Shown here piece by piece: positions 10,854 through 16,192 of a stretch of 64,000 nt of DNA (position 1 is the first letter of the stretch; each line of letters begins with the position of its first letter). The position numbers were made by a program, and so were the translations under genes. The notes beneath the pieces are model-generated. The model saw only the letters and a program-made list of their open reading frames with translations, was not told where the DNA came from and made no database searches. The DNA lies in contig NZ_PCPR01000002.1 in NCBI RefSeq assembly GCF_002979775.1, positions 124,001 through 188,000 on the forward strand, in the 5' to 3' direction. Source of the stretch: Arthrobacter sp. MYb23 (GTDB lineage Bacteria; Actinomycetota; Actinomycetes; Actinomycetales; Micrococcaceae).

Positions 10854-11058
10854 CAGTTCTCCTCAGTTCACCGCATCTGAATGTGATGCAGACAACGTTC
10901 CTGAAAGAAGTATGTCGCTTGACTGGGTCACTTGACTAGGTTTTGGCGTAAAATTTCTTTCGGAGGACTTTTTCACCTCCCCGGCACGGCCAAAACGACG
11001 TCACGGCGGATACCGCCTACGATCGTTGAGACCGCCTGAAAGAGAAGAAGGTGCATGG
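10854..11058. promoter_or_regulatory. Divergent control region, amidohydrolase operon / TetR gene
   Basis: 205 bp between two divergent genes. It contains a direct repeat of CTTGACT (10919 and 10932), a 9-bp imperfect inverted repeat (10901-10909 with 10955-10963), a short palindrome GGCGGATACCGCC (11005-11017) and ACGATCGT (11019-11026). The last two lie close to the TetR start and are reasonable operator candidates. TTGACT could serve as a -35 element, but no well-spaced -10 was found, so promoters are not assigned. Confidence 0.4.
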
Positions 11059-11664
11059 ATGGCCAGGGTTCCCGCTGAGGAAAGGCGGCTGCAGTTCGTT
11101 GAAGCCGCTGCAAGGGTGATCGCCCAGGACGGCCTCGCCTCTGCAACCACGCGACGAATCGCCAGTGAAGCCGAAGCCCCGCTTGCGGCACTGCACTACT
11201 GTTTCCGGAGCAAGGACGAACTCCTGGAAGAGGTCTACAACTTCCTCAGCAGGGACTACGCCAAGGCACTGGAGCCTGTGGCCGACCCTGGAATGGGATT
11301 GCGCCACATGGTGGGCGCCCATGCCAGACGCATCTGGAGCCGCATGCTGGAAAACCCGCATGAGCAGGTCACCACCTTCGAGCTGTTGCTTCGGCGCTTC
11401 CGCGTAGAGGCCGAGGACCAGCCACAGGCCTTGCTCATGAACCGTTCCATGTACGACGGCTGGGTTAACTCAACGCTGGAGCTGTTCCGTTCGGCCGCAG
11501 AAGCCGCCGGAGAACCTGTCCCCGCCAACCTGGAGGACATCACGCGCTTGTTCATTTCCGGGATCGACGGCATCAGCATGCAACATTTGGCCGACCCCGA
11601 CGACGAACGGTCCCTCCGGCTGGTGGAACTCATGGCCTCATCCCTCGCCGGGGCGCTCCACTAA
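11059..11664 (+). CDS. TetR-family transcriptional regulator
   Basis: 201 residues from the ATG at 11059, with AGAAGAAGG upstream. The N-terminal helix-turn-helix runs through about residues 8-52 (AARVIAQDGLASATTRRIA, then CFRSKDELLEEVYNFL). The remaining all-alpha region is the ligand-binding and dimer domain. It is divergent from the amidohydrolase-ABC-sulfatase operon, which it probably represses until a substrate or product binds. Its stop overlaps the MFS gene stop by three bases on the other strand. Confidence 0.9.
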   Translation: MARVPAEERRLQFVEAAARVIAQDGLASATTRRIASEAEAPLAALHYCFRSKDELLEEVYNFLSRDYAKALEPVADPGMGLRHMVGAHARRIWSRMLENPHEQVTTFELLLRRFRVEAEDQPQALLMNRSMYDGWVNSTLELFRSAAEAAGEPVPANLEDITRLFISGIDGISMQHLADPDDERSLRLVELMASSLAGALH

Positions 11665-13076
11665 GCCTGAGGCTGGCGCTTCATCACCAACCACGTGAGA
11701 ACACCCAGCAGCAGAAGGCCGGCTGCAGCGGCCACCGAAACGACGAAGGCCGCCCCCGGGCCCTGCGTTTGCGCCAATTGCCCGGCCAGGTAGGAGCCCA
11801 AAGCCGTTCCAGCCACGATTCCGCTGGCCAGCGCCGTCATCACTGTGGCCATGCGACCGGCCGGAGCCACCACGCCACCGATGCTGAAAACAGTGACCAT
11901 GACCGGCCCCACAGGGACGCCCAGTATCAGCAAGACAAAGATCATGGGCCAAATACCTGCAGGGAGAAACAGCAGGAGGGACAAAACAGACATGGCCAGT
12001 GCCGCGACAACCCAACGGGAAGCCAAGCTGAACCGTTGAGGCCAAAACGCTACGGACAGCGCTGCAACAGCGGAACTGAGACCCATCACCGCATACAGAA
12101 GTCCGGCGATCTCAGCTGAGGCGTACTGCGCCGAGAAGGCACTCAACGCGTTCTGCGTCGCCCCGAAAAAGGTACCCATGCAAACCATGGCAACCACCGG
12201 AACAGCCACCACGGCGCCGGCCCATCGCTTGCGCTGCTGCGGAGCCACCTGGGTGGATTGCGCCCCGGGAGATTGCTGTCCCTGAGAAGTTTCCTGGCCT
12301 TGAGAAGTTTCCTGGCCCTTGGGAGGCACGACGCCGGCACGCGGCTTCCGGGGTGCCGGTACCACCGCATGCTGGCTGGGGTGGACCGCAAAGGCAGGAA
12401 CCAGGGTGATGGTCATGACGGCTGCCAAAGCGAGAGGCAACCAGGGTGCCACCATGCTGGCCAAGACGCCCACCAACGCAGGGCCCAGCACGAAGGTGAC
12501 CTCGTCTGCGGTGCCCTCATAGGACAGTGCGGTATCCAGGTCAGCCCGGTTGGCTGCGACACTTCTTCCACCGTTGGCTGCAGAAGGGGACAAATTGCGG
12601 GTGGTCAGCGCCATCCACCGCACACGGGCCATGGGACCCACCTGCGGACAACTGGCTCCCGCGAGGAAAGCTGCAATGAGGACACCCACCGCGTCGCCCA
12701 CGGAACCATAGCCGGACGTGAGGTAGGCCGCGGCGAGGAGCCCGGCTACGGCAAGGGTATTGATGACCGCTGCCACAAGGAGCACAATCCGTTGCCCGGC
12801 CCTGTCGGCCAAAGAGCCCAGTACCGGAGCACCCAACGCCGAGCCGATGCCCACCGCTCCGGCCGCCATGCCGCCGATTGCGTACGACTGGCTGACGGCT
12901 GTAATGAGGGTCAGGGTCCCCACGGTCAGCATGGCCAAGGGAAGCCTGGCAAAGAGCCCCAAGGGCAGGAAACCAGGTCCCGCCAATTCAGGAAGCCGCG
13001 CGAATCGGCCCGGCAGGCGTGAGGGGCGTGCGGGAGCCGATGATAAAGACTGTGAAGCTACAGAGGTTTTTTCCAT
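11661..13076 (-). CDS. MFS transporter, probable drug or metabolite efflux
   Basis: 471 residues with about twelve transmembrane segments in two halves. The loop between TM2 and TM3 has GSLADRAGQRIV, the MFS motif A equivalent. A central linker (about residues 220-285) is hydrophilic and contains a GQETSQ duplication produced by an 18-bp tandem repeat at 12283-12318. The ATG at 13076 has only a weak ribosome site, and a structured leader precedes it. The gene lies 86 bases after sbcC on the same strand. The substrate is unknown; efflux is inferred from family and leader. Confidence 0.87.
   Translation of the reverse strand: MEKTSVASQSLSSAPARPSRLPGRFARLPELAGPGFLPLGLFARLPLAMLTVGTLTLITAVSQSYAIGGMAAGAVGIGSALGAPVLGSLADRAGQRIVLLVAAVINTLAVAGLLAAAYLTSGYGSVGDAVGVLIAAFLAGASCPQVGPMARVRWMALTTRNLSPSAANGGRSVAANRADLDTALSYEGTADEVTFVLGPALVGVLASMVAPWLPLALAAVMTITLVPAFAVHPSQHAVVPAPRKPRAGVVPPKGQETSQGQETSQGQQSPGAQSTQVAPQQRKRWAGAVVAVPVVAMVCMGTFFGATQNALSAFSAQYASAEIAGLLYAVMGLSSAVAALSVAFWPQRFSLASRWVVAALAMSVLSLLLFLPAGIWPMIFVLLILGVPVGPVMVTVFSIGGVVAPAGRMATVMTALASGIVAGTALGSYLAGQLAQTQGPGAAFVVSVAAAAGLLLLGVLTWLVMKRQPQA
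12283..12318 (-). repeat. 18-bp tandem duplication inside the MFS linker
   Basis: Two 18-bp units (12283-12300 and 12301-12318) differ at only the last base and add six residues in frame to the central cytoplasmic loop. This is a local slippage product in a region with little constraint. Confidence 0.8.
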
Positions 13077-13080
13077 TAAT

Positions 13081-13133
13081 CCGGGTTCGCTAAAGAATGC
13101 GCATCGTCCCTCCTCCCGATGCGCGCGACCCGG
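13081..13133 (-). promoter_or_regulatory. Structured leader of the MFS gene, possible translational attenuator
   Basis: In the MFS transcript an inner perfect 8-bp stem (13099-13106 with 13117-13124) encloses the loop GGAGGAGGGA. An outer stem adds CCGGGT/ACCCGG plus three more pairs (13081-13090 with 13123-13133). The loop is a strong Shine-Dalgarno sequence for a 4-codon ORF that starts in the stem. A possible -10 TAGACT lies at 13156-13151. This resembles leader attenuators of resistance genes in layout only. Confidence 0.45.
13090..13104 (-). CDS. Putative 4-residue leader peptide (Met-Arg-Ile-Leu)
   Basis: ATG CGC ATT CTT TAG, preceded four to seven bases upstream by GGAGGAGGG, which is far stronger than the ribosome site of the MFS gene itself. 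The stop lies 13 bases before the MFS ATG. The start codon sits in the 3' arm of the inner hairpin. Translation or stalling here could open or close the region and set MFS expression. It may also be a chance ORF; the ribosome site is the main evidence. Confidence 0.35.
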   Translation of the reverse strand: MRIL

Positions 13134-13162
13134 TGTAACGGGTTAAGTCTATCGGATGCGAC

Positions 13163-16100
13163 TTAGACCGGAAGAGCTTCGGCAATCCGCACGCTGGATC
13201 CGTTTCTGCCCTTAACCACCTGAAGCTGGCTGGTGATCCGTTGCTTCATTTCCGCGACGTGACTGACAAGGCCAACCACCCGGCCGCCGTCACGAAGTCC
13301 TTCCAGTGCGTCCATCACTTGCTCCAGTGATTGCTCATCCAGGCTGCCGAAGCCTTCGTCAACAAACAGTGTCTCGATATCCACGCCGCCGGCCTCCTGC
13401 TGGACCACGTCGGCGAGGCCCAGTGCCAAGGACAACGAGGCCATGAAGGATTCACCGCCAGATAGCGTGGACGTATCCCGCCGCTGGCCGGTCCACTCGT
13501 CCACGACTTCGAGACCAAGGCCCGACTTTGCACCTCTGGCAGCCTTGGCGTCCGTATGTTGCAAGGTGTACCTGCCATCGCTCATGGCCACGAGCCGCTC
13601 GGAGGCGGCAAGGGCCACCTGTTCCAGCCTTGCTGCCAGGACGTAGGTGTTCAGGCTCATCCGGTAGTTGTTATCGCCCGATCCCCGCACGGTATCGGCC
13701 AGTTCAGCCAGCATATGTGCCCGGCTCAGAGGTTCCCTTCCCTCTTGCGCCAGAGTCCGGTACTCCTTCCCCAGCCGGGCAACAGCATCCGCCGACTTTC
13801 CAGCCAGGCCGGCTGACAATGCCTTCGCCCGCGCATCATCCGCGGCGGTGGAAGCAAGAAGCCTCGATTCGGCAAGTTCGGCCTCGGTCAAGGGTAGTTC
13901 GCCAATGCTGGCTTCCTTTGCCGCAAGGACCAGGTCCTCAGCGGCAAACAGTTCATCCACGCGGGACGATTCGGCGTCGAAATCAGCGAGGTCTTTCTCA
14001 AGGCCCACAACATCGGCCGGCGGCAGGATTTCCCGGCGGGCTTCGTCGCCCGATGCGAAACCGGATTCCGAAAGGGCCTTTTCCAGTGAGGCGGCGGCGT
14101 CCACGCCGGCCTGTTTTGCCTGGTCCAGTTCCCGGTCTGCATCAACGGCCGCTTGCAGAAGCCCGCGCTCAGCCATGAGGGCTTCCAACTTCCCGCGAAG
14201 GCTGGGGAAGCCTTCCCTCAAGCCAGCGAGTTCTGCTTCCAAGGCAGCACATTGCTCCTGCAGCAGGTGCACAGCCGATGACGCTTGGGCCGCTGCGCTG
14301 ACGGACTCAGCGTGCTCTTGCTGCACCAGGGCAATCTGCTTGCTGAGGGCCCCGTGCCGAGCACGAAGCTTTTCCAGCTCCACTGCCGCCTGACGGGCCG
14401 CCGAGGCAGCATCCCGGGCGGATGCCCGCTTTGACTCTGCTTCAGCAGCATCAACTGAGCCACCCCGGGCAACCAGTCCGGCGAGCACCTGCGCCGCAGA
14501 GGAAACCTGCTCGGCGAGGAGCCCCAAGACTTTTTCACTGGCCTCAAACCGTTCCTTTGTGTCTTCCTCTTCCTGGGCGAGGGACAGTGCTGTTTGCACG
14601 GCTTCGGCGGGGTTGGGATGCTCTTCGCTTCCGCACACGGCGCACGGCTTTCCGCTCTCCAACGCCGCTGCCAGCTCCCCTGCTGCGTTGGCCAGACGCA
14701 GCTCACGGACATCAAGCCACTTCTGCCGCAGGTCTTGGGACGAGGTCCTGGCCTGGAGATGTCTCCGGGTAATCTCGTCCAACTCATGGGTGGCAGTTGC
14801 GTGAAGGGCCACAATCCCCACCAACTCGTCAGCATCAGCAGCCGCCCGTTCCAGTTCTGCGAGTTGATCAGCCACAGGCACATGCGGCAGGATCTCTGAC
14901 TCCACAGTGGACACGTCAAGGCGCAGCTGTTCCAATACGGCGGCCGAAGCCTGGGCAGCTGCCTGATGTTCAGCGACTTCACCGTTTACGGTTGCCAGCC
15001 GTGCCGTGATCACCTCCAAGCGCTGCTCATCGGACAGCCGGGCCTCAAGGACTGCGCAGCCGGCCTTGACGGTTTCCAGCGCGACATCCGCAGTGGCAGC
15101 ATCCAAGCCCACAGCCTCAAGCTTCCCGCGGATCACGGAAGCCCGGGCTATGGCGGTTTGGAGTTTGCGTGCTGCCGAATCGACTGCTTCCAGTTGGCCG
15201 CTGAGAACGGCGGCCCGCCAGTGCTTTCCGAGCATCTCCTTGTTCTCCAGTGCCCGCGGCGCTGCCAGTTCAAGGAGCACCCGCCGCTGCATCGCGGCGC
15301 CGAGCCGCCCGTGCCTGAGCGACCTCTCCTGGGCCTCTTGGAACTCTTCCAGAAGTCGGGTGGACAGAGACGCTGCCTCAGCTGCCTCGTCCTCCCGGCG
15401 CTTCCCTTCAGCCCGGACCTCTGCCTCTACAGCGGCCAGCCAGGCCTCTGGGTCCTGTCCCGGTTCCGTCCTGGCGGCCGGAGTGGCATCGGCTGAGGTG
15501 TCAGCCGTGTGAAGATCCACTGCGTCACGCTCCGAGGCAACCCGGTCCAGCAGCAGTTTGAGCTCTGAGGTGTTCTCCTGCACAGCACGGGTAGCTTCAG
15601 CGGATTGTTGAAGAAGCTGGCGTTCCACCGTTTCAAATCGTTGGGTCCCGAACAATTTCTGGAGGAGATCCAGGCGTTCATTGGCCTTGGACCTCAAGAA
15701 CGCCGCGAAGTCGCCCTGGGGCAGCATCACCACACGGGTAAACTGCTCGCGGTCCATTCCAAGGATGTCCGAGAGCTCCGCACCTACCTCATCATTCCTG
15801 GAAGACTTCTCCTCCCAGCTCCCGGCCACGCGTTCCCTGAGGAGCGTCTTGGCCTGCTGGGTGGTGAATCCATGGCGACCGCGGGCGCTCGGCCGGTCCC
15901 ACGCCGGGGATCGCGTCACTTCAAAACGGCGGCCACGCGCGGAAAACTCGCAGACCACGCGCGGCTCCGCGCCGGGCGCGGCATGATCGCTTCGTAGCCG
16001 TTTCCCCTCTTGGCGGGTGCCGGGAACGGACCCGTACAGGGCAAAACAGATGGCGTCCAGAATGCTGGTCTTGCCGGCTCCCGTGGCGCCGTTGAGGAGG

Positions 16101-16192
16101 AAAAGGCCCTGGGCGCTTAAATGGTCGAAGTCAATGTGCTGTGGTGCTGCAAACGGGCCGAAAGCCTCAATGTCCAAACGATGAATTCTCAC
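13163..16192 (-). CDS. sbcC: Nuclease SbcCD subunit C (Rad50-like ATPase)
   Basis: 1009 residues, normal for SbcC. Walker A is GATGAGKTS (35-43). Long coiled-coil arms flank a CAVCG zinc hook near residue 517 that joins two molecules. The ABC signature LSGGES is near 910 and Walker B LFVDEGFGSLDE near 940. With SbcD it forms an ATP-driven nuclease that opens hairpins and processes double-strand ends. The start overlaps the sbcD stop as ATGA, so the pair is translated together. Numerous Ala/Glu-rich heptads fill the arms as expected. Confidence 0.95.
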   Translation of the reverse strand: MRIHRLDIEAFGPFAAPQHIDFDHLSAQGLFLLNGATGAGKTSILDAICFALYGSVPGTRQEGKRLRSDHAAPGAEPRVVCEFSARGRRFEVTRSPAWDRPSARGRHGFTTQQAKTLLRERVAGSWEEKSSRNDEVGAELSDILGMDREQFTRVVMLPQGDFAAFLRSKANERLDLLQKLFGTQRFETVERQLLQQSAEATRAVQENTSELKLLLDRVASERDAVDLHTADTSADATPAARTEPGQDPEAWLAAVEAEVRAEGKRREDEAAEAASLSTRLLEEFQEAQERSLRHGRLGAAMQRRVLLELAAPRALENKEMLGKHWRAAVLSGQLEAVDSAARKLQTAIARASVIRGKLEAVGLDAATADVALETVKAGCAVLEARLSDEQRLEVITARLATVNGEVAEHQAAAQASAAVLEQLRLDVSTVESEILPHVPVADQLAELERAAADADELVGIVALHATATHELDEITRRHLQARTSSQDLRQKWLDVRELRLANAAGELAAALESGKPCAVCGSEEHPNPAEAVQTALSLAQEEEDTKERFEASEKVLGLLAEQVSSAAQVLAGLVARGGSVDAAEAESKRASARDAASAARQAAVELEKLRARHGALSKQIALVQQEHAESVSAAAQASSAVHLLQEQCAALEAELAGLREGFPSLRGKLEALMAERGLLQAAVDADRELDQAKQAGVDAAASLEKALSESGFASGDEARREILPPADVVGLEKDLADFDAESSRVDELFAAEDLVLAAKEASIGELPLTEAELAESRLLASTAADDARAKALSAGLAGKSADAVARLGKEYRTLAQEGREPLSRAHMLAELADTVRGSGDNNYRMSLNTYVLAARLEQVALAASERLVAMSDGRYTLQHTDAKAARGAKSGLGLEVVDEWTGQRRDTSTLSGGESFMASLSLALGLADVVQQEAGGVDIETLFVDEGFGSLDEQSLEQVMDALEGLRDGGRVVGLVSHVAEMKQRITSQLQVVKGRNGSSVRIAEALPV

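Follow-up and report, generated by a model that had tools for sequence, protein, structure and literature searches.

The leader-peptide attenuators of erm, cat and cmlA resemble the leader described below in placing a hairpin before an exporter-like gene, in containing a short ORF with a strong Shine-Dalgarno (SD) sequence and in having the downstream start codon near a helix. Translational riboswitches, taken as a group, also lie at the mRNA 5' end and share with it a conserved single-stranded core carried by helices that co-vary, and a helix beside the start codon of one gene family. The hairpin sites of CsrA/RsmA are similar in presenting GGA in an apical loop that overlaps an SD-like sequence.

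The leader belongs to Arthrobacter sp. MYb23 (assembly GCF_002979775.1, contig NZ_PCPR01000002.1, positions 124,001-188,000; these 64,000 nt form the window). It lies between sbcC and an MFS gene, all on the minus strand, and matches its own genome once only. The reading preferred here, with a probability of roughly 0.6, is that it represents an undescribed structured leader RNA which would gate translation of the MFS gene through its outer helix P1, and not a four-codon stalling peptide. The features are listed below in the direction of transcription, with their basis in brackets.

13163-16192, minus strand: sbcC, the upstream neighbour (annotation)
13151-13146, minus strand: -10 box TAGACT (sequence; TANNNT spacing in relatives)
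about G13139, minus strand: predicted transcription start (placed from the -10 box)
13133-13128, minus strand: 5' strand of P1, CCGGGT (sequence, fold, co-variation alignments)
13124-13117, minus strand: 5' arm of P2, GCGCATCG (co-variation; G-U versus A-C test)
13116-13107, minus strand: G-rich apical loop, GGAGGAGGGA (conserved in relatives)
13106-13099, minus strand: 3' arm of P2, CGATGCGC, holding an ATG at 13104-13102 (sequence, co-variation)
13104-13090, minus strand: four-codon ORF, MRIL-TAG (present here, not conserved)
13086-13081, minus strand: 3' strand of P1, ACCCGG (its CCC ends 6 nt 5' of the MFS start codon)
11661-13076, minus strand: MFS gene, 471 aa, Pfam MFS_1 (NorA/MdfA-like predicted fold)

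P1 encloses P2, with a small internal loop between the two helices. The MFS ATG at 13076 lies 4 nt past the 3' strand of P1 and 13 nt past the MRIL stop. An earlier note on this DNA had described a ribosome site in the loop, an ATG in the P2 stem and the MRIL ORF ending 13 nt before the MFS ATG, and these sequence details are correct. In 172 of 173 distinct loci, compared with 6 of 935 control windows, the loop CGGG is preceded by a TANNNT box that ends 24-33 nt 5' of it (24-29 nt as seen). The usual spacing from a -10 box to the transcription start is 6-7 nt. With this spacing the transcript would begin at the foot of P1, so that the element is predicted to form the 5' end of the MFS mRNA. 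The earlier note had regarded a transcription start downstream of 13,090 as fatal to its proposal; the start placed near 13139 precedes the whole structure.

The fold of the leader is stable, with a minimum free energy (MFE) of -35.3 kcal/mol for 75 nt (z -4.8; equalled by none of 200 shuffles) and of -36.9 for 95 nt (z -3.5; equalled by 1 of 200). A perfect 8-bp hairpin with GGAGG in a loop of 8-12 nt occurs at one site in the window and on average 0.2 times in 10 mononucleotide shuffles of it. Taken alone this rarity is unusual, not extreme, and the significance of the hairpin comes from its conservation in relatives. RNAfold adds an outer CCGUUA/UAAUGG helix spanning the MFS ATG, which is not relied on, since its 5' strand precedes the predicted transcription start and the helix is missing in many other species. 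A G-quadruplex using the upstream GGG was also considered; it would compete with the well supported P2. An intrinsic terminator of sbcC was rejected: a terminator scan, restricted to loops of 3-8 nt, gives none at 13081-13133, and the tail after the stem, inspected by eye, reads ATTCTTTA, with no T run of the terminator kind.

Conservation within the genus was established by searching separately for the MFS protein (1e-40) and the leader (0.001) in 149 genomes, 91 of them from the same genus. The element and the MFS gene occur in the same 88 of these 91 genomes, and neither is found at these thresholds in the other three (G014, G047 and G081); the 58 genomes of this draw from outside the genus give no leader match. 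In the 88 leaders, positions -20 to +6 around the hairpin ATG are nearly fixed, while conservation falls to background upstream of the -10 box. The MFS start codons in the genus comprise 53 ATG, 29 TTG and 5 GTG, one locus having no scorable start. Start-codon scoring of 147 of 172 leaders often placed the start too early, and its start, SD and accessibility figures are not used.

For the analysis of pairing, alignments A1 (56 of 116 sequences), A2 (81 of 91) and A3 (87 sources) were used. Counts are made on distinct sequences because many loci duplicate one genome; the distinct sequences are still related, and no count represents a number of independent events. The pairing-filtered set keeps 187 of 196 loci and required the loop pattern, GGG upstream and five of six standard outer pairs. 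Among the nine loci dropped, L216, L226, L242 and L253 hold the element according to the model, L252, L255 and L261 are weak and without an MFS gene, and L256 and L259 are without the element. The unfiltered set accepts 229 of 256 loci and adds L147-L176, which were left out of the filtered set; some of the 27 not accepted, such as L211, L251 and L409, hold the element and miss the -10 or the loop pattern.

In 81 aligned leaders, 99.5% of the P2 cells are paired, compared with 6-53% in slid controls. P2 shows 60 double-change cells versus 12.8 in shuffles, with none of 500 shuffles as high, and the double changes are distributed over six of the eight pairs. The arms, GCGCATCG/CGATGCGC in this genome, read GCGCGACG/CGTCGCGC, GTGCACCG/CGGTGCAC or GTGTAGCG/CGCTACAC elsewhere, and five standard pair types are found at one position. 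Among 31 distinct arm pairs of the pairing-filtered set, one-sided changes give 19 G-U pairs versus one A-C, with three other mismatches. Because the 81 leaders came from loci preselected for five of six standard outer pairs, this test was repeated without the pairing filter; the 36 distinct arm pairs then give 21 G-U versus one A-C and 13 other mismatches, many of which derive from two wrong sites that are included (L054 and L289). The large excess of G-U over A-C argues for pairing in RNA rather than for a DNA operator.

The 10-11 nt between the arms are the most conserved part of the element. The loop pattern CG-GGNGG-N(1-2)-GGGA-CG, i.e. CGGGNGGN(1-2)GGGACG, is kept with rare exceptions, in filtered loci, whose selection itself used a similar loop pattern, and in family loci selected by a covariance model (R1, see below). 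The CG/CG pairs closing the loop are invariant, and the loop remains constant while the letters of the stem vary. The compensatory helices (P2 and, more weakly, P1) and the conserved unpaired core that characterize a structured cis-regulatory RNA are both present.

P1 is weaker than P2. In 87 sequences 86.6% of its cells are paired and double changes occur at four of six pairs (model-fitted alignment). Of the co-variation in both stems that the earlier note had proposed as a check, that of P2 is strong, and that of P1 is present in A3 and only one-sided in A1 (56 leaders, mostly from the genus). A free duplex test of P1 gives a mean z of -1.04 with p<0.05 in 26% of 80 windows, and the duplex energy is -11.0 kcal/mol in a species' own windows versus -10.6 kcal/mol in those of other species. 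The CCC or CCT of P1 is located 3-7 nt 5' of the MFS start codon in every one of the 87 genus loci whose start could be scored. In L200, L206 and L213 the best P1 partner is situated just 3' of the start codon, not 5' of it. By reading of the start codon, a TTG start in L282 (GACAAGGGT/ACCCCTTGTC) and a GTG start in L409 (CACAGG/CCTGTG) lie inside the 3' strand of P1, in each case before an MFS homologue. P1 is proposed as the gate for initiation because its 3' strand adjoins the MFS start codon or, in these two distant relatives, appears to contain it. A separate SD is recognized by eye after P1 in L243, L246 and L248, and masking by P1 would therefore be indirect in several genera. The nested stems of the MFS leader, P1 around P2, which the earlier note had pointed out, are conserved across relatives and sited to act on translation of the MFS gene.

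Beyond the genus, the distribution of the element was traced with covariance models. R1, made from 56 leaders and built partly from loci of genomes that it later matched, finds the element at E<=0.1 in 115 of 245 genomes of the family, representing 20 of 32 genera. Directly downstream of 70 of the 75 fetched R1 matches lies an MFS homologue; the other five are L211 and four weak matches. At L211 (genome G203, 301-565) the element after sbcC looks intact, but the MFS gene is reduced to a truncated start; another element of this genome, at C1:94008 (L225), does precede an MFS gene. At the old site the gene was apparently lost and the element survived. Some genomes negative by R1, such as G250 and G231, hold the element, as seen by eye and with a second model search. 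In a phylum-wide draw R1 matches 8 of 296 genomes, consisting of its own genus and six weak sites. R2, a wider model than R1, was run on an order-wide draw at E<=0.1, where it matches 38 of 396 genomes (15 from other families), and on a class-wide draw at E<=0.01, where it matches 9 of 394 (5 from other families). Of the 15 order-wide matches outside the family seven were inspected and two accepted, and the remaining eight, at E 0.034 and higher, are uncounted. The elements accepted outside the family are those of G094 (L285), G854 (L282) and G1112 (L409), each before an MFS homologue; these homologues are 32-39% identical over the aligned part.

A scan for one exact form of the element in genomes of named species gives at least 117 stretches. 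The 80 matches listed all belong to Arthrobacter, Paenarthrobacter, Pseudarthrobacter or unnamed Micrococcaceae, and in 78 of these 80 an MFS gene follows just downstream, the other two ending at the edge of the locus. Weak model matches not counted as members are L177-L182, from outside the genus, for which only the first 120 bases around each site were read, L252, L255, L261, L262, L286, L288, L289, L290 and L291, which are without an MFS match, and L410, L411 and L412, whose MFS match is at noise level only. L288 and L291 (about 1504, minus strand; another family) show a look-alike of P2 and its loop of the form GCATCGGGCGGAGGGACGATGC or GGGCGGGGGGA, with no MFS match nearby, and L410, from a distant actinobacterium, shows a perfect hairpin at about 1520-1550 with the same loop form, CGGGAGGGGGGACG, and no MFS match after it.

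Before some MFS homologues in the family and order, those at L256, L259 and L263-L269, no element is recognisable. At L263, L264 and L265, from another Micrococcales genus, a different, near-identical leader of about 70 nt precedes the MFS homologue and ends in GGAGGAGACC. It has no Rfam match at the cut-offs, and the exporter may thus have leaders of two types.

The MFS protein itself matches Pfam MFS_1 and has no NCBIfam or PADLOC match. A comparison with PDB sequences gives no match (protein E<=0.1; profile E<=0.01). Structure prediction (mean pLDDT 82) gives a NorA/MdfA-like fold, but many other MFS folds are nearly as similar, so that it does not point to a substrate. Plasmid records yield two entries, with distant MFS homologues only. 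A TetR-family gene (11026-11664, plus strand) is convergent with the MFS gene, the ends of the two genes overlapping by 4 nt; its product is a possible regulator of the MFS gene.

What the sequences support directly is that the helices and the loop are conserved, that the promoter keeps its spacing and that the element is closely linked to one MFS gene. Based on these features, transcription would start just 5' of P1, at the position given by the -10 box, and the RNA would fold into P1, the small internal loop and P2 capped by the G-rich loop. Formation of P1 would hold initiation back and opening of P1 would allow it, so that control would be exerted on translation with P1 as its gate. The G-rich loop probably reads the signal, and the effector acting at this site could be a small molecule, a protein or the ribosome. 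A small-molecule or protein signal is ranked above a ribosome-based one, and a stabiliser that reads no signal is a live rival.

In one version of this structured leader, which is put forward tentatively, the element would be a very small ligand-sensing RNA, i.e. an orphan riboswitch, in which the G-rich loop forms the pocket and the ligand is the MFS substrate or a relative of it; such an RNA would occur in Micrococcaceae and a few other actinobacteria. Somewhat less probable is that the loop is bound by an RNA-binding protein or, in trans, by a C-rich small RNA. Sites of these two kinds usually look like the loop observed here, which is purine-rich, unpaired and strongly conserved while its stem varies, but a search of this genome at E<=0.001 detects neither a member of the 6C small RNA family nor CsrA. 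It was also considered whether the SD-like loop pairs with the MFS coding region. This was rejected; such pairing appears striking by eye at some loci (CTCCTCCC), but over 116 loci the loop is no more complementary to the first 40 nt that follow the leader than expected by chance (mean z -0.03 versus codon shuffles).

Control by translation of the short ORF, as the earlier note had proposed, is considered unlikely. According to this proposal a ribosome would start at the hairpin ATG and melt P2 and P1, and its stalling or termination would set initiation on the MFS gene, either as an attenuator or through coupling of the ORF. In agreement with it, GGAGG is present in the loop near an ATG or GTG in the 88 genus loci, the MFS start has no obvious SD by eye in the genus, and 46 of the 88 ORFs either stop within five codons or share 4 nt with the MFS start. 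However, the peptide and its stop vary. The exact MRIL-stop, whose conservation in relatives would have supported the proposal according to the earlier note, is found in 7 of the 88 loci; a further 30 have another four-codon ORF, making 37 in total, one has a five-codon ORF, and in 50 the ORF is longer. Of these longer ORFs 8 overlap the MFS start by 4 nt (ATGA or TTGA), 40 enter the MFS gene out of frame and 2 run in the MFS frame without a stop. Residues 3 and 4 of the ORF are variable in the genus, and in one further locus of the same genus, L130, ACG stands in place of the hairpin start codon.

Across genera, a start codon (ATG, GTG or TTG) is present at the site in 33 of 50 distinct sequences of P2 and its loop and absent in 17, while GGAGG is present in 36 of the 50 and absent in 14. 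A start codon accompanies GGAGG in 24 of 36 sequences, compared with 9 of 14 sequences lacking GGAGG, in the pairing-filtered set; the corresponding values without the pairing filter are 25 of 37 and 8 of 17. The start codon and GGAGG show no clear tendency to occur together, and with this the main argument for a stalling peptide falls away. The comparison reveals no short ORF that is conserved along with a start and SD of its own, and no conserved peptide or stall codon, as a leader-peptide attenuator would have. What relatives have conserved in the element is not the synthesis of a peptide from MRIL, and control by stalling on a tiny peptide is not supported. Of the outcome that the earlier note had named as contrary to its proposal, relatives keeping the MFS gene while losing the ORF, the ribosome site and the stem pairing, the loss of the ORF is observed, but the stems are kept. 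Ribosome loading on the loop GGAGG is possible in this genus. More generally, a conserved stem-loop can incidentally produce what looks like a short ORF with a strong ribosome site.

About equally improbable is a constitutive 5' element, a stable hairpin whose SD-like loop binds the 30S subunit or blocks 5'-dependent decay and which would increase the lifetime or ribosome loading of the mRNA with no signal involved. The position at the predicted 5' end of the mRNA, the high stability and the presence of GGAGG in the loop of 36 of the 50 distinct sequences are in line with such a role; the link to a single gene family, the conserved loop, the invariant CG/CG closing pairs and the loops without GGAGG exceed what it would need. 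A DNA operator, in which the inverted repeat binds a dimeric regulator such as the convergent TetR protein and RNA pairing is incidental, is very unlikely, because, despite the perfect palindrome just 3' of the promoter and the adjacent TetR gene, the distinct P2 arms contain 19 or 21 G-U pairs versus one A-C and are not the symmetric sites without G-U preference of an operator palindrome, the 10-11 nt between them are the most conserved part, unlike a spacer, and the arms drift through five standard pair types at one position.

Rfam 15 gives no family at its gathering score in the window; on the leader it gives two chance-level matches at E<=10, and on seven loci of relatives one match at E<=1, all far below the cut-off. 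The element was not found described in the literature, in which subscription journals were covered incompletely, and a term count in Stav et al. 2019 (PMC6429828) gives no mention of Arthrobacter, Micrococc, MFS, major facilitator or sbcC. As a family-wide RNA element tied to one exporter, the leader is of interest because the signal read by the RNA should point to the substrate of the pump. As a sensor of a small molecule it would rank with the smallest ligand-sensing leaders; as a sensor of the ribosome or a protein it would show how efflux is controlled in actinobacteria with few known RNA regulators.

The leader also differs from the described systems. Unlike the CsrA/RsmA hairpin sites, the element occurs in a genome in which no CsrA gene is found, and its loop, GGNGGN(1-2)GGGA, is longer and different. 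Compared with translational riboswitches it is very short, at about 60 nt, and has no Rfam match, no separate expression platform beyond P1 and no ligand assigned to it. In contrast to the erm, cat and cmlA attenuators, the peptide, its stop and, in many genera, the start codon and SD are unconserved, whereas the helices and the G-rich loop are the parts that are conserved.
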